Translations under genes and position numbers: made by a program
Shown here: in pieces, positions 735 through 14,431 of the stretch
Position numbering within the stretch: the first letter of the stretch is position 1
Layout of the letters: every line of letters begins with the position of its first letter
Origin: Rosettibacter firmus
Lineage (GTDB): Bacteria > Bacteroidota > Ignavibacteria > Ignavibacteriales > Melioribacteraceae
Assembly (NCBI RefSeq): GCF_036860695.1
Contig: NZ_JAYKGJ010000002.1
Coordinates: forward strand, 254,001-318,000
Reading direction: 5' to 3'
DNA length: 64,000 nucleotides
Notes under the pieces: model-generated
The model's database searches: none
What the model saw: only the letters and a program-made list of their open reading frames with translations
What the model was told of the DNA's origin: nothing

Positions 735-2840
735 ATGAAATCAAGATTTCACTTTTTCATTTTAATTTTAGTATTATCTTTTTACAATTTATTAGCCCAA
801 TATCCGCAAAAGTATGATTCACTAAAATTAGTAGTAATCCCAGCAGAAAAATATCATGCATATCGTCCTGGATTAGAATCAAAAACTGGCGATACTTTTA
901 CAATGGAAGATTCTATTGCAGGCTTTATTGGGAAAGGCTATATGAGAGCCAATATGGCAAAAGGAGATGGTAGTATAACAAATGCAGAGACCATTAATAT
1001 TAAACTTTCTTATAATGTAGAGTTTGTTGATACAGGAGTTTATTATATATGGGCATTTGTATATTTCCCGAATGATAAAAGTGATTCATACTTCTTTGGT
1101 ACCGATGGAAAAGTAGTTGGACAGGTTGCTGGACAACCACGTGGTGTATGGTCATGGCATAAAGGAGATAAAACCATTCATATTGATTCAACAGGTGTTC
1201 ATTCTCTTGATTTCTTTGGTCGTGAACCTAATGCACTTTTAGATCACATTATTATTACTGCAAGTGCTACTTTTGATCCAAATGTAAATAAAGAATGGGA
1301 AAGCTGGGGATTACCAAGTTTCACACAAAAATCTGATACACTTGGTTTAGTAATAATGCCAGCAGAAAAATATGATTTCTATCGTCCAGGTCTGGGTATT
1401 AAGACTGGTGATACTTTTACAATGGAAGATTCAGTTGCAGGCTTTATTGGACAGGGTTATATGAAAGCAAGAATGGCAAAAGGTGATGGGAATATTACAA
1501 ATGCAGAAACAGTAAATATTAAGCTATCATATATTGTAGATTTTGTTAAAACAGGAACTCACTATTTGTGGGCAAATGTATTTTTCCCTGATGGAAACAG
1601 CGATTCATATTTCTTTGGAATTGATGGTAAAGTTGTAGGACAGGTTTCAGGACAACCACGTGGTGTATGGTCATGGCATAAAGGAACTGCAACCTTTGAA
1701 ATTGATACACCTGGTGTCCATTCAATTGATTTCTTTGGACGTGAGCCAAATGCACTTTTAGACCATATCATTATTACACCGAATCCTAATTTCGATCCTA
1801 ATGTAAATAAAGAATGGAAACCTAAAGTTATAGCATTTGTTAGCTTACCTGGTAAAGTTGATCCTGCTACAGGTGAACATTTAGACAAACCATTTATTGA
1901 TGATTTAATAGCTGAAGGTTATGAAGTTTATACTTTATATCATACTTCACTTGAAACGGCACAGCAGAGTTTTATTGATAGTTTGAATTCAGCAGATCTG
2001 GTAATAATTGGACGTTCAGGTTTTAGTGGCGATTTTGGTGGTACACATAAAGTAGCATGGAACAATATTAGATCTCCTTTATTGCTACTTCAACTATGGG
2101 CAGCTCGTAACAATAGATTAAACTGGTTACCTACAGGTACAACAACTTCTTATGATACAGGTGGTGAAATTATAAAAGCAAAAATTGAATTACCTGATGA
2201 TCCAGTTTTCACAGGCGTTAACATTGGTGTTGATAGTACAATTAATTGGTGTACTACTCCTTATGATTTTATGGGAACAACTGATGGTGGTAATGGTGTT
2301 GTGCTGGCACGCGAAGTTAATAGTTTGAATGTTTTATTTGTAAGATGGGAGCCCTGGAAAGAATTTTATAATGGTTCTATTGATCGACCAGCAGGTTATC
2401 GTACTTTAATAGGAAATGGGAATGATCATGCTAATGCAACACTGGGAAGTCCAGTAAACTATTATAATTTCACTCAGGAGTCTAAACGTATTTATCTGAA
2501 CGAAGTTGCTCGTATGGTTCAATTAGGTAAAGTTGAAGAACCAGTTTCTGTGTCAGATGCTAAAAATAATATTCCGTCTAAATATGTTTTATTGCAAAAT
2601 TATCCTAATCCTTTCAATCCCACTACAACTATTGAATTTGGATTACCTGAGAAAAGCAATGTAAAAATTTCTGTTTATGATATTCTTGGGAGATTGGTTA
2701 CTACACTATTAGATAAAAACCTGAATGCTGGTTATCATAAAGTAACATTCAATGCTTCGAATCTTACTTCTGGTGTTTATTTCTATAAAATTGAAGCTGG
2801 TAATTTTGTAAAAGTTAAAAAGCTAATGTTAATCAAATGA
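735..2840 (+). CDS. Secreted T9SS protein with duplicated putative carbohydrate-binding modules
   Basis: I chose the ATG at 735, preceded by GGAGGGG, over the in-frame ATG at 723 that overlaps this ribosome site. Residues 1-21 form a signal peptide ending LLAQ. Two homologous modules follow (about residues 28-188 and 201-361), each opening PAEKY-x(3)-YRPG and closing FDPNVNKEW. Their layout (PAEKY, GYM, DSYFFG-DGKV, GVHSLDFFGREPNALLDHI) recalls CBM6/CBM35-type beta-sandwich sugar binders, which I infer rather than know. A central domain (about 365-610) starts VIAFVSLPGKVD and contains ADLVIIGRSGFSG, resembling a Rossmann-like or ThuA-like fold. The last 80 or so residues are a type IX secretion sorting domain (NYPNPFNPTT, ISVYDILGR, SGVYFYKIEAG). 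It probably acts at the cell surface on pectin-derived polymers. The enzymatic function, if any, is unknown. Confidence 0.8.
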   Translation: MKSRFHFFILILVLSFYNLLAQYPQKYDSLKLVVIPAEKYHAYRPGLESKTGDTFTMEDSIAGFIGKGYMRANMAKGDGSITNAETINIKLSYNVEFVDTGVYYIWAFVYFPNDKSDSYFFGTDGKVVGQVAGQPRGVWSWHKGDKTIHIDSTGVHSLDFFGREPNALLDHIIITASATFDPNVNKEWESWGLPSFTQKSDTLGLVIMPAEKYDFYRPGLGIKTGDTFTMEDSVAGFIGQGYMKARMAKGDGNITNAETVNIKLSYIVDFVKTGTHYLWANVFFPDGNSDSYFFGIDGKVVGQVSGQPRGVWSWHKGTATFEIDTPGVHSIDFFGREPNALLDHIIITPNPNFDPNVNKEWKPKVIAFVSLPGKVDPATGEHLDKPFIDDLIAEGYEVYTLYHTSLETAQQSFIDSLNSADLVIIGRSGFSGDFGGTHKVAWNNIRSPLLLLQLWAARNNRLNWLPTGTTTSYDTGGEIIKAKIELPDDPVFTGVNIGVDSTINWCTTPYDFMGTTDGGNGVVLAREVNSLNVLFVRWEPWKEFYNGSIDRPAGYRTLIGNGNDHANATLGSPVNYYNFTQESKRIYLNEVARMVQLGKVEEPVSVSDAKNNIPSKYVLLQNYPNPFNPTTTIEFGLPEKSNVKISVYDILGRLVTTLLDKNLNAGYHKVTFNASNLTSGVYFYKIEAGNFVKVKKLMLIK
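816..1817 (+). repeat. Tandem intragenic duplication, two copies 519 bases apart
   Basis: Bases 816-1298 and 1335-1817 encode the two modules of the secreted protein and align without length change at a period of 519 bases (173 codons). The closest stretch is 36 identical bases (1131-1166 and 1650-1685) coding for GQPRGVWSWHKG. The rest has diverged mostly at third positions and a few surface residues. This is an internal gene duplication kept under protein-level selection rather than a mobile element. Confidence 0.9.
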
Positions 2841-2924: not shown

Positions 2925-5900
2925 ATGAAACGATCTGTGCTTAATCTTGTAAATCAAATCTGGTATACTTTGATTTCAATTTTTAGTTTGAATATAATTT
3001 TATTTTGTAATACTGTATCTGCACAGGATCTCAAACCGATTAAATTATCCTGGCTGGGAGGTACGCCCCCATCATTACCTTCTGGAATTAGCTGGGGTGT
3101 ACCTCTCCCAGAAGGAAAGATTAAAACAATTAATCAGTTTCAACTAAAAAATTCCAGAGGAGAAATTCTTCCTTTACAATCATGGCCATTAGCATATTGG
3201 CCAGATGGCTCTATAAAATGGATTGGACTGAGTACAGTTGTTGATGGTAATTCTGATAAAGAATTTGAATTAAGTATTATAAAAAAGTCGAACAATATTT
3301 CTTTAAATAAAAAGATTGAGATAAAAGAAACTGATAAAAATATTCTTATTAATACTGGAATTCTGGAATGTAGTATTCCAAAAAATGGTTATAATCTTTT
3401 TGATTTTATTAAAATCGATGGTAACATAATTTCATCGGGTGGAAGTTTAGTGTGCATTTTGCAGAATGGAGACGATTCAGAAATTGGTACGCAACCTTCA
3501 AAAGAAAAATTTATTGGAGAAATTGAAAAAGTAACAGTTGAACAAAATGGGCCAGTAAGATCAGTAATCAAAATTGAAGGCAAACATGTATCAGAATCTG
3601 GAAATAGACGCTGGTTATCTTTTATTGTTCGACTCTATTTTTATGCAGGATTACAAACGATCAGGATTATTCATACATTTATTTATGATGGTAATCAACA
3701 ATATGATTTTATTCGTGGTTTGGGATTAGTTTTTAATGTCCCACTAAATGAACAATTATATAATCGTCATATTCGTTTTTCTGGAGACGATGGAAGGCTA
3801 TGGGCTGAACCATGTCAACCTTTAACAGGTCGATTTCCACTTGATAGAAATGATAGTATTTATTCAATTCAGTTAACTGGAGAACGCATTGCCGAAATCA
3901 AAACTTTTTCTGAAAGACAACAATTTTTAATTAATAACTGGGCAAGCTGGAACGATTTTAAATTAATTCAACTGAATGCAGATGGATTCAGAATATTAAA
4001 AAGAACAAATGATAAAAGTGCATGGATTGATGCTGGTTACGGTAAACGATCAACAGGTTTGGCTTTTGTTGGAGATGTATCTGGTGGATTGGCTATTTGT
4101 CTTCGTGATTTCTGGCAGTCTTTCCCTTCAGCTTTAGAAATTTCGAATATTAAAAAAGATACTGCACAATTGAAAGTATGGCTCTGGTCTCCCGATGCTG
4201 AAAAAATGGATATGAGACATTATGATACTCTTGCATGGGGACATAATTTAATTGCAAGTTACGAAGATGTTCAACCTGGATTCAGTACAGCAACTGGTGT
4301 TGCACGCACTTCTGAATTATTACTATACGCATCTTTGAATGTTCCTTCTTATGAAATATTGAATAAAATTGCTTTAAAAGGAAATAATCCACCTTTACTT
4401 ACTGTTTCTCCAGAATATATGCATAATATTCCAGTATTCGGCATATGGAGTTTACCTGATCGTAGTTCAAAAATAAAAAGCTGGTTAGAAGATCAACTCG
4501 AAAAAGCTTTTGAATATTATAAACTGGAAGTAGAACAACGTCACTGGTATGGCTTCTGGAATTATGGCGATATACAACATAGCTATGATGCTAAGAGACA
4601 CACATGGAAATATGATATAGGTGGCTATGCGTGGGATAATACTGAACTTATGCCTAATATGTGGTTATGGTATAGTTATTTACGAACAGGTCGACAGGAT
4701 ATATTTAGAATGGCAGAAGCTATGACACGTCATAATAGTGAAGTAGATGTTTATCATCTTGGTGATTTTAAAGGTCTCGGTTCACGACACAATGTGATTC
4801 ATTGGGGATGCGGTGCAAAAGAAGTTCGTATTTCTCAAGCAGCTCTTAAACGTTTCTACTATTACTTAACTACAGATGAACGAACAGGAGATTTAATGCA
4901 CGAAGTTGTTGAAGCTGCAAACGAAGCTATAGGTAAGTATGATCCATTACGTATGATACTTGAAAAAAGTAAATATCCAACTCATGCACGAGTTGGACCA
5001 GATTGGCTTGCACTTGTTGGGAACTGGATGACTGAATGGGAGCGAACAAATGATACTCGTTATCGTGATAGAATTTTAATTGGTGTGAATAGTTTGTATG
5101 AAATGCCTTATGGATTTTTTTCTGGTAAAGATGCTGCATTCGGTTATGATCCCAAGACTTACAAATTATATCGCTTGAATGATAATTCAATTGGTTCAGC
5201 TCATCTTTCAGTGTTAATGGGAGGTCCCGAAGTTGCTTTTGAATTAACTCATTTACTAAAAAATGAAAAGTGGAATAAACTATGGCTTCAATTCTGTAAA
5301 TTATATGCAGCACCAAAAGAAGAAATTCAAAAAGAATTTGGTGTTGAAGCTGAATTGGGTAAACCAGGTTCATGGTATGCAAGATTACCTGCCTATTATG
5401 CAAAAGTTACAGGAGATAAATCTTATGCTGAAAGAGCATGGAAAGAATTTTTTAACTCTGGATCACGATTCCAAACAAATTTTGAAATGGAAAAATTTGA
5501 TGAGATTCAAACCTTACAACCACTTTATGAAATTAAATGGATATCCACCAATAATACTGCACAATGGTGTTTAAATGCAATTGAATTACTTGATATGATT
5601 GGTGATGATATTCCTGAAAATATTCCTTTACCTGATGATAAAATTCAAACTAAGAATTCTGTTAATCAATATGAAAAAAGTGAATTACTTTACGAAGATA
5701 ATTTTGATAAAGATTTGAGTAATTGGATTATAGAAACTAAAAGTTCTCCACACTCTAAAGTTGAAATAAAAAATGGTGAACTGGTTATTGATGTTGAACA
5801 TGGAACGACTGTCTGGTTCAATAAAAAATTATCTGGTAATATCTTGATTGAATATACTCGAAAAGTTATTGTAAATAATGGTTACAACGATCGATTGTCT

Positions 5901-6287
5901 GACCTTAATCAATTCTGGATGGCTACTGATCCACGTAATGAAAATTTATTTACACGAAAAGGAAGTTTTTCTGAGTATGATTCTCTTAGACTTTATTATG
6001 CTGGTATAGGTGGAAATAATAATACTACCACACGTTTTAGAAAATATCAGGGAAATGGTGAACGCACTTTGTTAATCGATTTTCAGGATAAAGAACATCT
6101 ATTACAACCTAACAAAACATATTTCATTCAAATAGTTGTTTATAACAATACAACAAAATTATTTGTTGATGGCAAAGAATATTTTACTTTTACAGACAGC
6201 GATCCACTAACCGAAGGTTATTTTGGTTTTAGAACTGTGAAATCACATCAAGTGATTGACAATTTTAAGGTATATCGACTTAAGTAA
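2925..6287 (+). CDS. PL26-type exo-rhamnogalacturonan lyase with C-terminal DUF6250 domain
   Basis: This 1120-residue protein has a signal peptide (about 1-34, ending VSAQ). The N-terminal part (LSWLGGTPP, ISWGVPLPEG, WPLAYWPDGSIKWIGLS) matches the start of the PcRGLX/PL26 exo-rhamnogalacturonan lyase family. The middle (about 300-900) is rich in aromatic helices typical of its alpha/alpha catalytic region. From about residue 921 (LYEDNFDKDLSNW) to the end it resembles DUF6250, a lectin-like beta-sandwich often fused to pectinases. PL26 enzymes remove unsaturated Rha-GalA disaccharides from rhamnogalacturonan I by beta-elimination. Products would feed the GH105 enzyme and rhamnose pathway downstream. 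The start is preceded by GAGAG. The family call rests on recognised motifs, not a search. Confidence 0.8.
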   Translation: MKRSVLNLVNQIWYTLISIFSLNIILFCNTVSAQDLKPIKLSWLGGTPPSLPSGISWGVPLPEGKIKTINQFQLKNSRGEILPLQSWPLAYWPDGSIKWIGLSTVVDGNSDKEFELSIIKKSNNISLNKKIEIKETDKNILINTGILECSIPKNGYNLFDFIKIDGNIISSGGSLVCILQNGDDSEIGTQPSKEKFIGEIEKVTVEQNGPVRSVIKIEGKHVSESGNRRWLSFIVRLYFYAGLQTIRIIHTFIYDGNQQYDFIRGLGLVFNVPLNEQLYNRHIRFSGDDGRLWAEPCQPLTGRFPLDRNDSIYSIQLTGERIAEIKTFSERQQFLINNWASWNDFKLIQLNADGFRILKRTNDKSAWIDAGYGKRSTGLAFVGDVSGGLAICLRDFWQSFPSALEISNIKKDTAQLKVWLWSPDAEKMDMRHYDTLAWGHNLIASYEDVQPGFSTATGVARTSELLLYASLNVPSYEILNKIALKGNNPPLLTVSPEYMHNIPVFGIWSLPDRSSKIKSWLEDQLEKAFEYYKLEVEQRHWYGFWNYGDIQHSYDAKRHTWKYDIGGYAWDNTELMPNMWLWYSYLRTGRQDIFRMAEAMTRHNSEVDVYHLGDFKGLGSRHNVIHWGCGAKEVRISQAALKRFYYYLTTDERTGDLMHEVVEAANEAIGKYDPLRMILEKSKYPTHARVGPDWLALVGNWMTEWERTNDTRYRDRILIGVNSLYEMPYGFFSGKDAAFGYDPKTYKLYRLNDNSIGSAHLSVLMGGPEVAFELTHLLKNEKWNKLWLQFCKLYAAPKEEIQKEFGVEAELGKPGSWYARLPAYYAKVTGDKSYAERAWKEFFNSGSRFQTNFEMEKFDEIQTLQPLYEIKWISTNNTAQWCLNAIELLDMIGDDIPENIPLPDDKIQTKNSVNQYEKSELLYEDNFDKDLSNWIIETKSSPHSKVEIKNGELVIDVEHGTTVWFNKKLSGNILIEYTRKVIVNNGYNDRLSDLNQFWMATDPRNENLFTRKGSFSEYDSLRLYYAGIGGNNNTTTRFRKYQGNGERTLLIDFQDKEHLLQPNKTYFIQIVVYNNTTKLFVDGKEYFTFTDSDPLTEGYFGFRTVKSHQVIDNFKVYRLK

Positions 6288-6394: not shown

Positions 6395-7741
6395 ATGAGA
6401 ACTAAGCACACTTTGTTAATTGTTGAAATAATTTTATTATTATTTTATTCAACAATAATTGCTCAAATTGGTAGAAGGTTTCCATCAGAAAAAAAAGTTA
6501 TAACCGATCCAGTTACTGGTTCTAAATTAATATTCTTAACAAGCACACAGGCAGGGGATTCAAAAATATATCCAACTCATACTCAATGGACTTCAGATGG
6601 CAACTGGATAGTTTTTAGATCTAATCGGGTTCGGCATGAATTAATGGCAGTAAATGAGAACTCAGGTGAAATTGTTCAGGTTACTGAAGGAGGCTATACG
6701 GGAACTCCACTTGTTTCCAGAAAATCTATGAAACTATATTATATGCGAGATTCAAAAGAAAATCCAGGTTCTCGAGAAATTGTTGAGACTAATTTAGAGA
6801 AGCTTTTTAATGATATAAAAACAAATAATTTAAAAGGTGCATCAGAATATCAACACGTTTGCGGAGTTATACCATCGGAATTTGAAGCCTATGGTGATTT
6901 AGCTTTAGATGCAAACGAAGAATGGATATGGTTTCGAGTTGGTCGTAATTATGCAATGAAGTATTTACCAGAAGGAACTAAAATAGAAGGAAACTTTGGT
7001 CCTCGAAATATGGGTGCTGGTCCGTCTGGAATTGCAGGATTTAATGTCAATACTGGAGAGATTAAATATGTTATTTCTGTTCCTTTTCAGATAGGTCACA
7101 TACAAAGTAATCCATGGGTTGCTGGACAAATAATTTTTTGCTGGGAAACTGGAGGTAAATCACCGCAACGAACCTGGATAGTAAATTCAGATGGAACTGG
7201 ATTGAGACCACTCTATCCTGAAGCACCTTATGAATGGGTTACTCACGAAGTTGTTATTACTCCAGATGAAGTTGCTTTCGCTATTATGGGTCATAGAAAA
7301 ATTCCTGGTAATTATAATGATACAACAATCATAAATGATGTGTCTAACTTAGGACAGGAAAAAGAATGGGGAAATACAGGAACAAGAGAAAAACCAACAG
7401 GACTTGCTGTAGTAAATATTAAAACAAAAGAAATGTTTATAGCAGGTCAAATAACATACGGTAGTGGTTTCTGGCATGTTGCTGGTTCTTCCGATGGACG
7501 ATTTTTAGCAGGCGATAATTTTGAAAGAGAAATTTATTTAATAGACAGACAAACTCATGAAATGATTTTACTTTCTGCTGGTCATAAAACTACTGCAAGA
7601 GATCATCCCCATCCTTCTTTTAGTCCAGATGGCACTAAAATTTTAATCCAATCTGCAATGCTTTCTGAAGATGGAAGATCAATGAATCTTTGCATTATCC
7701 CTGTTCCTGATGAATGTTTAAAACGGAATTACAAAAAATAA
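6395..7741 (+). CDS. Oligogalacturonate lyase, PL22 family
   Basis: This is a 448-residue beta-propeller protein with an N-terminal signal peptide (about 1-24, ending TIIAQ). It shows the family opening KKVITDPVTGSKLIFLTS, repeated propeller blades of the TQWTSDGNWIVFRSNR and SFSPDGTKILIQSAML kind, and an HPHPSFSPDG segment near residue 405. In PL22 the His-Pro-His histidines bind the catalytic Mn2+. The enzyme cleaves short oligogalacturonides from the end by beta-elimination to give 4-deoxy-uronate products. Characterised PL22 enzymes are mostly cytoplasmic, so the signal peptide, if real, implies a periplasmic version. The ribosome site is weak, so translation may depend on upstream context. 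It lies between the PL26 and GH105 genes, consistent with one degradation pathway. Confidence 0.85.
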   Translation: MRTKHTLLIVEIILLLFYSTIIAQIGRRFPSEKKVITDPVTGSKLIFLTSTQAGDSKIYPTHTQWTSDGNWIVFRSNRVRHELMAVNENSGEIVQVTEGGYTGTPLVSRKSMKLYYMRDSKENPGSREIVETNLEKLFNDIKTNNLKGASEYQHVCGVIPSEFEAYGDLALDANEEWIWFRVGRNYAMKYLPEGTKIEGNFGPRNMGAGPSGIAGFNVNTGEIKYVISVPFQIGHIQSNPWVAGQIIFCWETGGKSPQRTWIVNSDGTGLRPLYPEAPYEWVTHEVVITPDEVAFAIMGHRKIPGNYNDTTIINDVSNLGQEKEWGNTGTREKPTGLAVVNIKTKEMFIAGQITYGSGFWHVAGSSDGRFLAGDNFEREIYLIDRQTHEMILLSAGHKTTARDHPHPSFSPDGTKILIQSAMLSEDGRSMNLCIIPVPDECLKRNYKK

Positions 7742-7770: not shown

Positions 7771-9015
7771 GTGAAACAAATTGTTTTTCTCATAATTATT
7801 TTCTTTTTGAACTTAATTTCTTTTGCACAAAATGATATTGATGAAATTGTAGTAAGAAGAGTAGCTGATTATATTCTTGAACATGGAGAGTTAGGTTTCA
7901 AAGATATTAATACTGGAAAAATCTATAAATCAACTAAAGAAGTACCAGATGGGGCACAGCTTAGATTCTTAAATCCATTTGGTGAGTGGCATTATACAAA
8001 TGGTGTTTTGAATATGGCATTAATAAACTTATCTAATCTTATGGGTGATAAGAAATATGCAGACTATGCAGCATCGCACATAGCTTTTGGAATGGATAAT
8101 TATAAATATTTTCAAGCTCGTTATAATAAAGAAAAAGATGGACCACATTACATGTTCCCATTTGGTCAACTCTGGACTATGCGTGAACTGGATGACTGTG
8201 GTGCTATGGGAGCCAGCATGATGGATGTTTACGAATTTGTTAAACGTAAAGATTATAAAGAATATATTGAAAATGCTGCTAAACATATTACAGAAAGACA
8301 GGAACGTTTGGATGATGGAACATTGGTTCGAACATTCCCCTACAAAATGACTTTATGGGCAGATGATTTATATATGAGTGTTCCATTTCTTGCAAGAATG
8401 GGAAAATTTTCAGGTGATAAAAAATATTGGGACGATGCAATTCTCCAAATCAAAAATTTTTCAAAATATCTATGGGATGAAAATAAAGAACTATACTGGC
8501 ATTGTTATTATTCCGATTTGAAACGTAATGGTGTTGCACATTGGGGTAGATGTAATGGTTGGGTGATGATGGCTAAAGTGCATCTTTTAAACTTCTTACC
8601 AGAAAATTATCCAGGTAGAGAAGAAGTAATTAAAGATCTCGAAAGACAAATTTTAGGTATTGCAAAATATCAAAGCAAAGAAGGATTATGGCATCAGTTG
8701 CTTGATAAAGAAGATTCTTACTTAGAGTCTTCTTGCACAGCAATGTTTGTTTATTCAATTGCAAGAGCTGTAAATCAAGGATGGATAGATAAACGCTATG
8801 CTTCAATTGCAATTAAAGGATGGGAAGGATTAAAAGCACATAAAATACAACTCGATGGCCAGGTTAAAGATATTTGTGTTGGAACAGGAATCGAAGACAA
8901 TTTAGTTTTTTACTATGAACGCCCTGCACGTTTGAATGAAAAACATGGTTTAGGAGCAGTAATTGATGCAGGAATCGAAATAATTAAATTAAAGAAAACT
9001 TTGAATCAAAAATAG
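7771..9015 (+). CDS. GH105 unsaturated rhamnogalacturonyl hydrolase (YteR/YesR-like)
   Basis: The start is a GTG with a strong AAGGAGG upstream. A signal peptide covers about residues 1-20 (FLNLISFAQ). The rest is an (alpha/alpha)6 barrel with family segments WHYTNGVLNMAL (about 73), WADDLYMSVPFLARMG (about 196, containing the catalytic-type Asp), HWGRCNGWVMMAKV (about 256) and SCTAMFVYSIARAV (about 320). At 414 residues it is slightly longer than cytoplasmic YteR because of the leader. Family members hydrolyse the unsaturated galacturonyl residue that pectin lyases leave on rhamnose or galacturonate oligomers, freeing rhamnose. The next three genes take up and isomerise rhamnose, which supports rhamnogalacturonan rather than heparin-type substrates. 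Confidence 0.88.
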   Translation: MKQIVFLIIIFFLNLISFAQNDIDEIVVRRVADYILEHGELGFKDINTGKIYKSTKEVPDGAQLRFLNPFGEWHYTNGVLNMALINLSNLMGDKKYADYAASHIAFGMDNYKYFQARYNKEKDGPHYMFPFGQLWTMRELDDCGAMGASMMDVYEFVKRKDYKEYIENAAKHITERQERLDDGTLVRTFPYKMTLWADDLYMSVPFLARMGKFSGDKKYWDDAILQIKNFSKYLWDENKELYWHCYYSDLKRNGVAHWGRCNGWVMMAKVHLLNFLPENYPGREEVIKDLERQILGIAKYQSKEGLWHQLLDKEDSYLESSCTAMFVYSIARAVNQGWIDKRYASIAIKGWEGLKAHKIQLDGQVKDICVGTGIEDNLVFYYERPARLNEKHGLGAVIDAGIEIIKLKKTLNQK

Positions 9016-9411: not shown

Positions 9412-10452
9412 ATGGAATCATTTATGAGTATTATTCTTATTGCAATCGGCAGTATATGTGCTGCCAGTTTTTATGTACCAATAAAGAAAATTAAAGAATG
9501 GTCATGGGAATCTTATTGGATTGTTCAGGGAATTGTTTCATGGATAATTGCACCATGGGTCTTTGCATACTTTACAGTACCTGAACTTGGAAATGTACTT
9601 GCTAATTCACCTGCTAATGCAATATGGGGAGCAATTATTTTTGGTGCATTGTGGGGAGTTGGTGGACTTACATTTGGTTTAAGTATGCGATATTTAGGTG
9701 TTGGACTCGGTCAATCTGTTGCTCTTGGTTTTACTGCAGCTCTTGGAACTTTAATCCCGCCTTTTGTCTCGGGTAGAAATTTATTTTTAACACACGAAGG
9801 AAGATTAATTCTCTTAGGTGTTGCCGTTTGTGTAACAGGAATAGCTATTGTTGGTTATGCTGGTGTTTTAAGATCTCGTAATATGCCAGAAGAAGATAGA
9901 AAAAAAGCAATAAAAGATTTTGCTTTGAAAAAAGGATTATTAATAGCAGTACTATCGGGATTGATGAGTGCTTGCTTTAATTATGGTATTAATGGAATAC
10001 CAGGTGTTGTCGATGCAGGTTATGTTATTCAGAAAGTAGCAGCTGAGTATAATACTGATCCATTGTTTGTTGTTAATCCAGCATATATTCTTGTAATGTT
10101 TGGAGGATTTTTAACAAACTTTGTTTACTGCATGTACCTGAATTTTAAGAATAAAACTTTTAGTGATTATTATTCTGTTAATAAAAAAGTTCTATTTAAT
10201 AATTTATTGTTCTGTTTATTAGGTGGTACACTCTGGTACTTACAATTCTTTTTCTTTGGTATGGGACAAAGCAAACTTCCACAGGCAATGTTTGTTTTTG
10301 GCTGGAGTATTTTGATGGCTCTTAATATTCTTTTCAGTAATGTATGGGGATTGATTTTAAAAGAGTGGAAAGGTGCTGGAGCTAAAACTATGGCAACTTT
10401 ATTTTTTGGTTTAATAGTTCTTATTCTTTCAACATTTGTAATCAAATTATAA
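9412..10452 (+). CDS. rhaT: L-rhamnose/H+ symporter
   Basis: The 346-residue protein has about ten hydrophobic segments and clear RhaT motifs: ASFYVPIKKIKEWSWESYW near the N-terminus, GALWGVGGLTFGLSMRYLGVGLGQSVALG around 80-105, and GLMSACFNYGI around 186-196. E. coli RhaT has 344 residues. It imports L-rhamnose with protons across the inner membrane. The gene follows rhaM and precedes rhaA by 24 bases, with ribosome sites AAGGTG and GGAGG. It is the only recognised sugar transporter in the pectin region of the window, so uronate uptake genes must lie elsewhere or outside. Confidence 0.92.
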   Translation: MESFMSIILIAIGSICAASFYVPIKKIKEWSWESYWIVQGIVSWIIAPWVFAYFTVPELGNVLANSPANAIWGAIIFGALWGVGGLTFGLSMRYLGVGLGQSVALGFTAALGTLIPPFVSGRNLFLTHEGRLILLGVAVCVTGIAIVGYAGVLRSRNMPEEDRKKAIKDFALKKGLLIAVLSGLMSACFNYGINGIPGVVDAGYVIQKVAAEYNTDPLFVVNPAYILVMFGGFLTNFVYCMYLNFKNKTFSDYYSVNKKVLFNNLLFCLLGGTLWYLQFFFFGMGQSKLPQAMFVFGWSILMALNILFSNVWGLILKEWKGAGAKTMATLFFGLIVLILSTFVIKL

Positions 10453-10476
10453 CTTACAGAATCTTTGGAGGTCTAA

Positions 10477-11748
10477 ATGAAAAATCAAAAAAATATAGAA
10501 CAGGCATATCAAAATGCTAAACAATTATATGCAGACTTGGGTATTGATACAGATCTTGTATTAAAAAAGCTTGATGAAATTGAGATAAGTTTACATTGCT
10601 GGCAAGCTGATGATGTCGGTGGATTTGAAACTCCCGATGCAGAGTTAAGTGGAGGAGGTCTTCAGGTAACAGGTAATTATCCAGGTAAAGCAAGAAATGT
10701 AGAAGAGTTGCGTTCGGATATCGAAAAAGTTATGAGTTTACTACCTGGCAAACAACGTTTGAATCTTCATGCAATATATGGAGATTTTAAAGGTAAAAAA
10801 GTTGATCGTGATCAGATAACAATTGAACATTTTCAAAGCTGGATTGATTGGGCAAAAAAATTAAATATTGGTATGGATTTTAATCCAACCTGTTTTTCGC
10901 ATCCATATGCAGATGATGGGTTTACTCTTTCATGTAAAAATGAAAAACATCGTAAATTCTGGATTGAACATGTTAAACGAACCAGAGAAATAGCTGCAGA
11001 AATAGGCAAACAACTTGGTAAACCTTGTATTAATAATATCTGGATTCCAGATGGTTCAAAAGATATTTCTGTTGACCGCTACACACATCGTGCATTATTA
11101 AAAGATTCACTCGATGAAATTTTCAAAGTCGAATATCCAAAAGATTATTTAAAAGATTCACTTGAAAGTAAATTATTTGGAATTGGTTCAGAATCAATGG
11201 TTGTTGGCTCTCATGAATTTTATTTAGGTTATGCAATTAAAAACAATAAGATGATTTGCATTGATAGTGGACATTTTCATCCTACAGAACAAATTGGAGA
11301 TAAAATTTCAGCTCTCCTTCTTTTTGTTGATGAATTGTTATTACATGTAAGTCGTGGTATTCGCTGGGATAGTGATCATGTTGTTATTTTTAATGATGAA
11401 GTACAATTTTTAGCTCAGGAAATTGTTCGTGCTAATGCTTTAAATAGAGTAAATATTGCTCTTGATTTTTTTGATGCAAGTATAAATCGGATTGGTGCAT
11501 ATGTAATTGGCACAAGAGCTACTCAATTAGCATTATTATATGCACTACTTGAACCAACACATTTATTAAAAGAACTCGAAGAAAAAGGGAAGTATTTTGA
11601 AAGACTTGCTTATATCGAAATAATGAAAACAAAGCCATTCGGGGCAATTTATGATTATTATTGTCTCATCAATAATGTACCTGTTGGAGATTATTACATT
11701 AATGAAATTCAGAAATATGAAAAAGAAGTTTTAAGTAAAAGGAGCTAA
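10477..11748 (+). CDS. rhaA: L-rhamnose isomerase
   Basis: The protein has 423 residues, against 419 in E. coli RhaA. It carries the family signatures ISLHCWQADDVGGFE, GNYPGKARN, MDFNPTCFSHPYADDGFTLS, NIWIPDGSKD, and IDSGHFHPTE, whose acidic and histidine residues bind two metal ions. The TIM-barrel enzyme converts L-rhamnose to L-rhamnulose in the cytoplasm. GGAGG lies seven bases before the ATG. Rhamnulokinase and the aldolase (or an alternative phosphorylated route) are not in the window and may lie upstream of base 1. No terminator is obvious in the 149 bases that follow. Confidence 0.92.
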   Translation: MKNQKNIEQAYQNAKQLYADLGIDTDLVLKKLDEIEISLHCWQADDVGGFETPDAELSGGGLQVTGNYPGKARNVEELRSDIEKVMSLLPGKQRLNLHAIYGDFKGKKVDRDQITIEHFQSWIDWAKKLNIGMDFNPTCFSHPYADDGFTLSCKNEKHRKFWIEHVKRTREIAAEIGKQLGKPCINNIWIPDGSKDISVDRYTHRALLKDSLDEIFKVEYPKDYLKDSLESKLFGIGSESMVVGSHEFYLGYAIKNNKMICIDSGHFHPTEQIGDKISALLLFVDELLLHVSRGIRWDSDHVVIFNDEVQFLAQEIVRANALNRVNIALDFFDASINRIGAYVIGTRATQLALLYALLEPTHLLKELEEKGKYFERLAYIEIMKTKPFGAIYDYYCLINNVPVGDYYINEIQKYEKEVLSKRS

Positions 11749-11897
11749 TATTAATTTATTGCATTCATTTGTATTTATAAGCTTTTGATCATTACAATTC
11801 TTTTTTCGCCGATATTCCCCATAATAATATTTTACATTAAATAAAAGTAAAATTAATTTGTAATGATTTGATAATAATTTTCAATAAGGAAATTACT

Positions 11898-13295
11898 ATG
11901 AATCGTCGTGAAGCAATTAAAAAAACTGTTGGTGTTATAGCATTAACAGCTTTATCACCAGCAGTTACACCATTAATTTTTAGCAGTAAATCAAAAAAGG
12001 AATTTAATGTTTTGAAATTTGGAGCCAGAGGAGATGGTAAAACTCTTGATTCTCCTGCGATTCAAAAAGCAATTGATAATGCACATGCTTCTGGAGGAAA
12101 AGTAATAGTTCCTGAAGGATATAAATTCTTAATTGGCACAATTGAACTTAAAAGTGGTATAGAATTTTTTATTGATCAGGGAGCTGAATTAATTATCAGT
12201 ACAGAACAATCGCATTATAAAAATTCAACTGCATTTTATGCAGATGGTGCAGAAGAACTTATTATTTCAGGTTATGGCAATATAAACGGTCGTGCAGTTG
12301 AATTTATGTCTCATTACGAAGAAGCAAATGAATGGTGGATCCCTAAAGAATGGCGACCTAAAATGTTCATTCTTAAATCCTGTAGAAATCTAACCACAAA
12401 AGAATTTACATTTGGCAATGCTCCTGAATGGGGTTTACATATGCTTGGATGTGAAAATGTATTAGTTGATGGCATTAAAATAAGAAATCTTCTTAATGTC
12501 CCTAATTGTGATGGAATAGATCCAGACCATTGTAGAAATGTTGAAATCAAAAATTGTGATATTGTTTGTGGTGATGATGCAATAGTTATTAAAGCAACAA
12601 AACAGGAAATTGATTATGGCCCTTCATCAAATATTTATGTCCATGATTGTGTACTTGAAACTCAGGACTCAGGTGTAAAAATTGGTACAGAAACAACTTC
12701 TGATATTAACAAAATTACTTTTGAAAATTGTAAGATTAAATCCAGTTGCAGAGGATTAAATATCCAGCTGCGAGATAATGGAGTTGTAAGTGATATTGTT
12801 TTTAGTAATATAGAATTTGTGTCTAAATATCATTCTGATCCATGGTGGGGACGTGGTGAGGCTATTTCGTTTACTGCTATTCCAAGAAATAAAGATACAA
12901 AATGTGGAAAAATTAAAAATGTTATTGTAAAGAATGTAAGTGGCAAAGCTGAAAATAGCATAAGAATTAATGGTACTAAAGAAAGTATTATTGAAAATGT
13001 TCTTTTAGAAAATGTATCTGTTGAGTTTAATAGATGGACAAAATACAAAGGAGGACTATTCGATAACCGTCCCACTACAGTTTATGAACCTATTGAATAT
13101 TGTGATAATCCGGGAATAAGTATCAGGTATGCAAAAGATATCATGATAGTAAATAGTTCAATTAATTGGGGTAATAATATTCCTGAATATTTTAGTAATG
13201 CAATTAAAGTTGAAAATTCTCAAGGTGTCAAAATAAAATCGTTTACTGGCAAATCTGCTAATCCGAATTTATATGAAGATATAGTTTTTCTATAG
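11898..13295 (+). CDS. GH28-family polygalacturonase-like enzyme with twin-arginine leader
   Basis: I prefer the ATG at 11898, preceded by AAGGA, over an in-frame ATG 30 bases earlier. It gives 465 residues beginning MNRREAIKKTVGVIALTAL, a twin-arginine-type leader. A right-handed beta-helix begins at FNVLKFGARGDGKTLD. GH28 catalytic motifs are visible: NCDGIDPD (about 202-209) and GDDAIVIK (about 225-232). The usual third motif (G-H-G) appears as DSGVKIGT and the last (R-I-K) as RGLNIQLRD, so this is a divergent subfamily. It may act on rhamnogalacturonan or another uronic-acid polymer rather than plain polygalacturonate. A TatA gene occurs at 39515-39718. The start region and family are well supported, the substrate is not. 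Confidence 0.85.
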   Translation: MNRREAIKKTVGVIALTALSPAVTPLIFSSKSKKEFNVLKFGARGDGKTLDSPAIQKAIDNAHASGGKVIVPEGYKFLIGTIELKSGIEFFIDQGAELIISTEQSHYKNSTAFYADGAEELIISGYGNINGRAVEFMSHYEEANEWWIPKEWRPKMFILKSCRNLTTKEFTFGNAPEWGLHMLGCENVLVDGIKIRNLLNVPNCDGIDPDHCRNVEIKNCDIVCGDDAIVIKATKQEIDYGPSSNIYVHDCVLETQDSGVKIGTETTSDINKITFENCKIKSSCRGLNIQLRDNGVVSDIVFSNIEFVSKYHSDPWWGRGEAISFTAIPRNKDTKCGKIKNVIVKNVSGKAENSIRINGTKESIIENVLLENVSVEFNRWTKYKGGLFDNRPTTVYEPIEYCDNPGISIRYAKDIMIVNSSINWGNNIPEYFSNAIKVENSQGVKIKSFTGKSANPNLYEDIVFL

Positions 13296-13306
13296 GAGTG
13301 TAATTT

Positions 13307-14431
13307 ATGAAAAAATTGTTAGCATGTATATTTGTTTTCCTTTTCTCTTTTTCAGGATTTTATCTTGATAGAGAAGATGTAACATTTCCGGTATTTCAAT
13401 TTCCGCATGATCGCATTCCAGTTATTGATGGTAATCCTGATGATTGGGCAATAGTTCCAGAATCATATACAATAGGTATTGAACAAGCCTGGGAAGATTC
13501 TGGTAAACAGGATTCTATTAATAAAAAAAATCTTGATTTTAAAGTAAAAGTTGGATGGGTAAAAGGATTAAATAGACTTTATTTTTTATACGAAGCTTAC
13601 GATGATTTCTGGAATTTTTGTCGCAACGATCATCATAATGATATTTTTGAAGTTGTGGTTGATGGCGATTTGTCAGGTGGTCCCCTTGTTGACCATGCAC
13701 ATTATAAAGTATGGACTCCAGAAGCTGTTGGAACTGATCGTGTTAAATTAGATCCACGAATTACTCCAGAAGATGAACACTGGTTGATTCACGGAGTTCA
13801 TGCACAGAATTATCATATTTTTACTCCACCAGGGAAAAAAGATTGGTGTATGGTCTGGGGTATTCAGCCCTGGATTAAAGAATTTCCTTATGCTCTTTCT
13901 GCTTGCAAATATAATTTCACAAGGACAGGCCAATCTGGTAAATTAATTTTAGAATTTTATATAACTGTCTTTGATTATGCCCCTGCTGATGGACCTGCCA
14001 GAGCAGTCGAATCAAAATTTGAAGAGAATAAATTAATTGGTTTATCATGGGCGGTGATTGATTATGATGATTCTACTTCAACAAGCCACAATGGATTCTG
14101 GAATCTATCACGTCATCATACAATGTATGGAAATGCATCTTATCTATGTTTATTCAAATTAATGCCACTCTTACCAGAATTTTTACCAAAATTGAAAGCA
14201 AACTGGAGTTTTAAAGTTATTGACTTTGAAAAGAGAATTGTTGCTTTTAAAGATCTCTCAATCGGTAATATAAAAAAATGGAAATGGGATTTTGGAGATG
14301 GAAATTATTCTTATGAACAGAATCCTGTTTATCAATACAAAAAAGGTGGTGATTATAATGTTACACTTTATATCGAAGGTCCTGATGGCAAAGATCAATT
14401 AACTAAAGTTTGGGATGTTAGTTTTAAGTAA
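13307..14431 (+). CDS. Secreted CBM9-like protein with C-terminal PKD domain
   Basis: The 374-residue protein starts with a short signal peptide (about 1-19). Residues 34-280 resemble family-9 carbohydrate-binding or DOMON-type beta-sandwich domains: IPVIDGNPDDWAIVP, LYFLYEAYDDFWNF and NDIFEVVVDGDLSGG are typical of sugar-binding proteins of this kind. From about residue 290 there is a PKD domain with the hallmark KWKWDFGDGNYSYEQNPVYQY. No enzymatic motif or T9SS tail is seen. It follows the GH28 gene by 11 bases with GGAG before the ATG, so it is probably co-transcribed and may bind pectin fragments at the cell surface. This role is inference. Confidence 0.7.
   Translation: MKKLLACIFVFLFSFSGFYLDREDVTFPVFQFPHDRIPVIDGNPDDWAIVPESYTIGIEQAWEDSGKQDSINKKNLDFKVKVGWVKGLNRLYFLYEAYDDFWNFCRNDHHNDIFEVVVDGDLSGGPLVDHAHYKVWTPEAVGTDRVKLDPRITPEDEHWLIHGVHAQNYHIFTPPGKKDWCMVWGIQPWIKEFPYALSACKYNFTRTGQSGKLILEFYITVFDYAPADGPARAVESKFEENKLIGLSWAVIDYDDSTSTSHNGFWNLSRHHTMYGNASYLCLFKLMPLLPEFLPKLKANWSFKVIDFEKRIVAFKDLSIGNIKKWKWDFGDGNYSYEQNPVYQYKKGGDYNVTLYIEGPDGKDQLTKVWDVSFK

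Follow-up and report, generated by a model that had tools for sequence, protein, structure and literature searches.

The question raised by the stretch of Rosettibacter firmus DNA analysed here (64,000 nucleotides of contig NZ_JAYKGJ010000002.1, positions 254,001 to 318,000, called the window below) is what a secreted modular protein of 701 amino acids, encoded on the forward strand at 735-2840, does among the genes for pectin degradation that surround it. Binding modules specific for rhamnogalacturonan-I (RG-I) are few, and little is known of how pectin is retained at the surface of T9SS bacteria that lack the classical lipoprotein binding proteins.

The ORF list and translation showed a frame without internal stop, with a second in-frame ATG at 723. 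In order, the protein presents a signal peptide, MKSRFHFFILILVLSFYNLLA (735-797, judged by eye from the translation and without lipobox cysteine), two copies of a module of 165 residues which we call PAEKY (807-1301 and 1326-1820), a Rossmann-like domain (about 1815-2534) and a T9SS type A C-terminal sorting domain (2601-2828), all on the forward strand. The tail is recognized by both PF18962 (E=6.6e-15, 55.6 bits for a cut-off of 27) and TIGR04183 (E=7.9e-14, 51.4 bits for a cut-off of 23), and the PorU sortase of the T9SS is present in the same genome (977.8 bits for a cut-off of 420). The protein thus combines the sorting domain, the Sec signal (by eye) and the genomic sortase of a type A cargo, as the first-pass annotation, which had named it a T9SS protein, proposed. 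That annotation also described a central Rossmann-like domain: it is central in the protein, with the precision that it comes after both modules. The Pfam scan found no known catalytic family in the 701 residues, GH115 included, and a search of genome contigs with the whole protein returned only T9SS tails.

The surrounding genes had been read as a pectin or rhamnogalacturonan setting, and PL11, PL9, PL26, PL22, GH106, GH28, GH105, RhaT and RhaA around the gene bear this out. Downstream, on the forward strand, follow a PL26-type rhamnogalacturonan lyase (PcRGLX) with a C-terminal DUF6250 (2925-6287, Pfam scan), an oligogalacturonate lyase-like protein of PL22 (Pectate_lyase22; 6395-7741, domain scan) and, from the neighbour scan, a GH88/GH105 unsaturated glucuronyl/rhamnogalacturonyl hydrolase (7771-9015), the rhamnose symporter RhaT with the rhamnose isomerase RhaA (9412-11748) and a GH28 (11868-13295), then a PKD protein and a GH2. 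Upstream, on the same strand within the 20 kb preceding the window (locus L101), come a SusC-like TonB receptor, an unnamed T9SS protein, an esterase, PL11 and GH31, continuing with PL9, PL22, GH106 and GH2. By its gene content, this is a predicted RG-I utilisation cluster, including rhamnose uptake and isomerisation. The genome G188, from the same bacterial family and another genus, retains most of the cluster, with genes about 60-82% identical one by one, and an orthologue of the 701-residue protein.

Several other features of these clusters deserve mention. At L101:263-5014 the SusC-like receptor is followed, instead of SusD, by a T9SS-tailed protein of 566 amino acids, whose tail is its only Pfam family and which is 62% identical in G188; it may stand in for SusD or for a surface glycan-binding protein. 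Between GH28 and GH2 (13307-14431), a protein of 374 amino acids carries one C-terminal PKD and about 300 residues without Pfam match. In G143, a genome of another family, DUF6250 is found on a GDSL esterase (L095:5051-6745) adjoining a PL26 devoid of it, whereas in the window it is part of PL26 itself; this distribution suggests that DUF6250 is a mobile module which possibly binds pectin. Finally, near its module protein the G188 cluster has a GH115 gene that includes a GH115_C domain of its own (L094:13609-16080); the window's cluster, as far as scanned, yielded no GH115 gene.

The two PAEKY modules are the products of a duplication. The best ungapped self-offset of the gene is exactly 519 bases with 79% DNA identity, against 35% for the next best offset, so that the repeat is far beyond chance and the exact 519-base period noted earlier is confirmed; at the protein level the modules are 76% identical over 165 residues. 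The modules had also been said to end with a 36-base identical stretch. The stretch exists (1131-1166, forward strand, with its twin at 1650-1685), but its position is internal, about two thirds to three quarters into the module, and the identical match near the module end is one of 18 bases (1281-1298). Since 3% of shuffles, in which codon columns were shuffled, produce a run of at least 36 bases, it is only mildly unusual. One may ask whether the repeat is simply recent noise in an orphan or decaying gene without function, all the more so as searches of the genus's two other genomes, 79% and 94% complete, failed to find the protein and gave only one weak partial match each. We judge this highly improbable: the frame of 701 codons is open, the orthologue of G188 lies in a largely conserved cluster of another genus, and the two copies differ by a dN of about 0.15 for a dS of about 0.70, a ratio of about 0.2 which means that purifying selection keeps both. 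The dS of 0.70 between the modules, compared with saturation toward G188, points to a duplication of late date or to gene conversion, at odds with the protein tree, which groups module 1 with the G188 module (97/80, short branch).

The distribution of the module was followed in a sample of over 1,000 Bacteroidota genomes across several searches, plus plasmids and viral contigs. Its strict form was found in four genomes of this sample: that of the window, G188, and G143 and G283, which both belong to another family. The two other members of the genus, one of them only 79% complete, yielded no strict match. The arrangement differs between them. The orthologue of G188 contains one module and two Rossmann domains, the window protein two modules and one Rossmann domain, and in G143 and G283 a single module is the N-terminal part of an enzyme that continues with a PL9 right-handed beta-helix (PF22842, 3.5e-80 and 8.4e-80) and ends in the T9SS tail. 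Through this fusion the module family belongs to carbohydrate-active enzymes, even though PL9 is absent from the window protein. The PL9 of its own genome is a separate, module-free gene situated a few kilobases upstream (L101:11528-13183) and is 59-60% identical to the PL9 of G143 and G283. Judged from these homologies, module and lyase form one protein in G143 and G283 and two proteins of one predicted cluster in the window genome. Together, cluster and fusion make for a strong link to pectin. Both pectate lyases and an RG lyase, BT4170, are classed in PL9 (PMC6627557, PMC8787155), and the PL9 of the window genome shows a weak match, below cut-off (6.5e-5), to the BT_4170-like C-terminal family.

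Pectin context accompanies the close form of the module in all four genomes, and distant relatives are also attached to GH9 enzymes and PKD-containing proteins. These relatives, about 30% identical, were found in G178 (at least three copies), in G255 (with PKD-like repeats) and, as the only two records from the plasmid search, in Persicobacter plasmid proteins annotated GH9. Viral contigs held no relatives of either the module or the Rossmann domain; a PHROGs tail-protein match to part of the module (E 0.006) was taken as beta-sandwich noise. In G178, two neighbouring secreted proteins (L097:8099-11702) together carry at least four GH115_C-like modules, three of them on the larger protein, which has no recognised catalytic domain.

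What fold the module adopts was approached through these distant relatives, called here the bridge family. On the whole window protein, the Pfam model of GH115_C (PF17829), the C-terminal domain of GH115 alpha-glucuronidases, reaches 22.9 bits, below its cut-off of 24.1, and single modules 16.5 and 14.0 bits. Compared directly by hhalign, strict modules and GH115_C match weakly (9%, the last 92 columns only), whereas strict modules match the bridge family at 99.8% over 157 columns, and the bridge family matches real GH115_C domains at 97.5% over 145 columns; the link to GH115_C thus depends on the bridge family. Each of the 11 bridge modules that were scanned has a PF17829 match with an E value no higher than 0.01 (best 1.7e-15), the match of the family to PF17829 being full-length, and one of them also matches CBM_35, weakly. 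When compared with the PDB, the bridge profile finds weakly the CBM6/CBM35 structures 5fui (0.0012), 2vzp (0.010), 1uxz (0.047) and 2w47 (0.27), together with GH98 C-terminal regions (0.00025). Among these, 2vzp is the uronate-binding Chi-CBM35 and 2w47 is Rhe-CBM35, of a rhamnogalacturonan acetylesterase, with which the window modules have the pectin context in common. This chain of profiles makes a CBM6/CBM35-type beta-sandwich the most likely fold of the module. The strict modules themselves, or a profile including those of the window, gave nothing credible in sequence and profile searches of the PDB, and the window modules no significant match to a CBM6/CBM35 family model or solved member. 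The structure predicted with the two window sequences as input consists mostly of strands, with a pLDDT of 36.

The modules resemble GH115_C in their C-terminal signature (IDxxGxHxxxFxxREPxxLLDHIxIT against IxxxGxHxLxIWxxDPGxxxxKIVI) and differ from it by a family-specific stretch, RPGxxKxGDxF...GYMKAxMAxGDGSxxNAE. The tree separates them, with 100/100 support, from both the bridge modules and GH115_C, as a clade whose long stem measures 1.62 changes per column. The clade keeps the AE near the start and the D near the end that it shares with CBM35/CBM6, but has neither the Glu that opens the usual EAE start nor the early Trp seen in its relatives. On these comparisons the modules are a separate branch which no curated family in Pfam takes above its cut-off. 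The proposal of a new carbohydrate-binding family stands in part: the modules have their own clade below the Pfam cut-off, but as distant members of the GH115_C / CBM6-CBM35 group they have a fold with relatives.

The kinship with GH115_C raises the idea that the modules are structural, serving oligomerisation or as spacers without binding sugar. In the four-domain GH115 enzymes, the C-terminal domain is located at the interface of the dimer, where it contacts the other protomer's binding site (PMC13059095). GH115_C being the nearest curated family, and the PAEKY clade having lost the Glu and Trp mentioned above, such a role is conceivable, but we hold it to be unlikely, because the bridge family has its nearest solved structures among sugar-binding modules of CBM6/CBM35 and because duplication in the window protein and a position N-terminal to the PL9 lyase elsewhere are typical CBM behaviour. 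To our knowledge, moreover, dimerisation through GH115_C is described only for GH115 enzymes. Sugar binding is the preferred function of the modules, and BT0996-C of Bacteroides thetaiotaomicron offers a comparison: this CBM6/35-like beta-sandwich from a pectin-degrading system lacks the canonical site residues and binds polygalacturonate (PMC9843283). BT0996-C, which belongs to an RG-II enzyme, is rich in lysine (PMC9843283), whereas the window modules have an acidic pI (4.2-5.5) and are found in an RG-I cluster, so that its binding mode is not simply transferable; no sequence match between the two was found.

For the Rossmann-like domain, Pfam offers no family at E up to 10, apart from one unrelated weak match in a G158 copy, and a PDB sequence search with the family gave nothing credible. 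A profile of 13 relatives nevertheless aligned with ThuA proteins (PF06283) of related genomes with an hhalign probability of 87% (E 3.7e-6) over 186 columns, most of the domain, against 0.1-0.2% for unrelated control profiles. The D/HPVFTG and the late G-D/G-H motifs are aligned, at a profile-alignment identity of about 13%. As the Pfam cut-off of ThuA (33.4 bits) is not reached, the earlier label of ThuA-like is fair as remote homology and not as membership. A ThuA match was also lacking in the window's own genome, and the window-type domain is further distinguished by being secreted and often arranged in tandem pairs. Its structure predicted from a single sequence had a pLDDT of 36; a fold search on this model and on that of the module, of the same pLDDT, returned antibodies and unrelated folds, no CBM, and was disregarded.

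Relatives of the domain are known in six further genomes, no plasmid record containing any. Beyond G188 these are G158, G485, G514, G564 and G624, all of one other family and about 30% identical; four of the five contain a tandem pair, and G564 has a lone copy, whose gene extends as far as the end of the contig. Behind the pair of G158 come a LamG domain and a beta-helix region, an arrangement that G624 and G514, judged by sequence, seem to share. In G158 and G485, the two genomes whose loci were Pfam-scanned for neighbours, the tandem-pair T9SS protein comes directly after SusC and SusD, in the company of a pectinesterase, a GH105-type GH88-family protein, a DUF4861 protein and a GSDH protein. 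The DUF4861 proteins directly adjoin the tandem Rossmann protein in both pectin clusters (L110:13249-14478, L166:7022-8293). One pectin cluster contains, besides a tandem-pair protein, a T9SS protein of 340 amino acids beside SusC/SusD with a single, very distant Rossmann copy (L166:16645-17667, E 3e-6). A hybrid origin of the window domain from the two domains of G188 was not supported, the site pattern being mixed.

Could this domain be catalytic, acting on pectin fragments while the two modules serve as targeting CBMs? Modules of CBM type are usually attached to enzymes, and in G143 and G283 the module precedes a PL9 lyase. Moreover, 23 columns are invariant across 12 Rossmann copies, many of them polar (R67, S71, D73, R98, R101, D151, W178, R196, D204, Y216 and T220 are the invariant polar residues), as would be expected of an active site and of a binding pocket alike. 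A modular enzyme is nonetheless a possibility that we regard with some doubt, since Pfam finds no catalytic family in the domain, tandem pairs as seen in four further genomes and in G188 are unusual for catalytic domains, and the place directly after SusD in the scanned pectin clusters is the usual slot of a surface glycan-binding protein. We know of no ThuA-related domain with an established glycan-cleaving activity.

We favour, with moderate confidence, a T9SS-exported surface pectin-binding protein of the RG-I cluster. The T9SS would export the protein to the cell surface, where the two CBM6/CBM35-type modules, a divergent subfamily related to GH115_C, would bind the pectin backbone or the ends made by lyases, their duplication raising avidity, and the ThuA-like Rossmann domain would provide a second, non-catalytic binding surface. 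Together, the modules and the Rossmann domain would hold the substrate near the PL9, PL11 and PL26 lyases and the TonB-dependent uptake barrel. The pectin-binding reading draws on anatomy, homology, the secretion signal, gene context and the PL9 fusion elsewhere; from these we infer sugar binding, its ligand, the absence of catalysis and the capture role. That either part is repeatedly duplicated (two modules and one Rossmann domain in the window protein, one and two in G188) fits avidity better than catalysis. More tentatively, PAEKY may constitute a new CBM family for the RG-I backbone, or for the unsaturated ends left by PL9, PL11 and PL26, and the ThuA-related tandem a second, so far unrecognised fold that the T9SS exports in pectin loci of Bacteroidota and that binds or modifies pectin.

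For the organism, these sequence comparisons indicate that the protein probably helps to hold pectin for the neighbouring enzymes. Two uncharacterised domains with a consistent pectin context are now named, one of which, the module, is fused to PL9 in one lineage and carried in another by a separate protein near the equivalent lyase, so that a role as helper of the lyase is directly testable.
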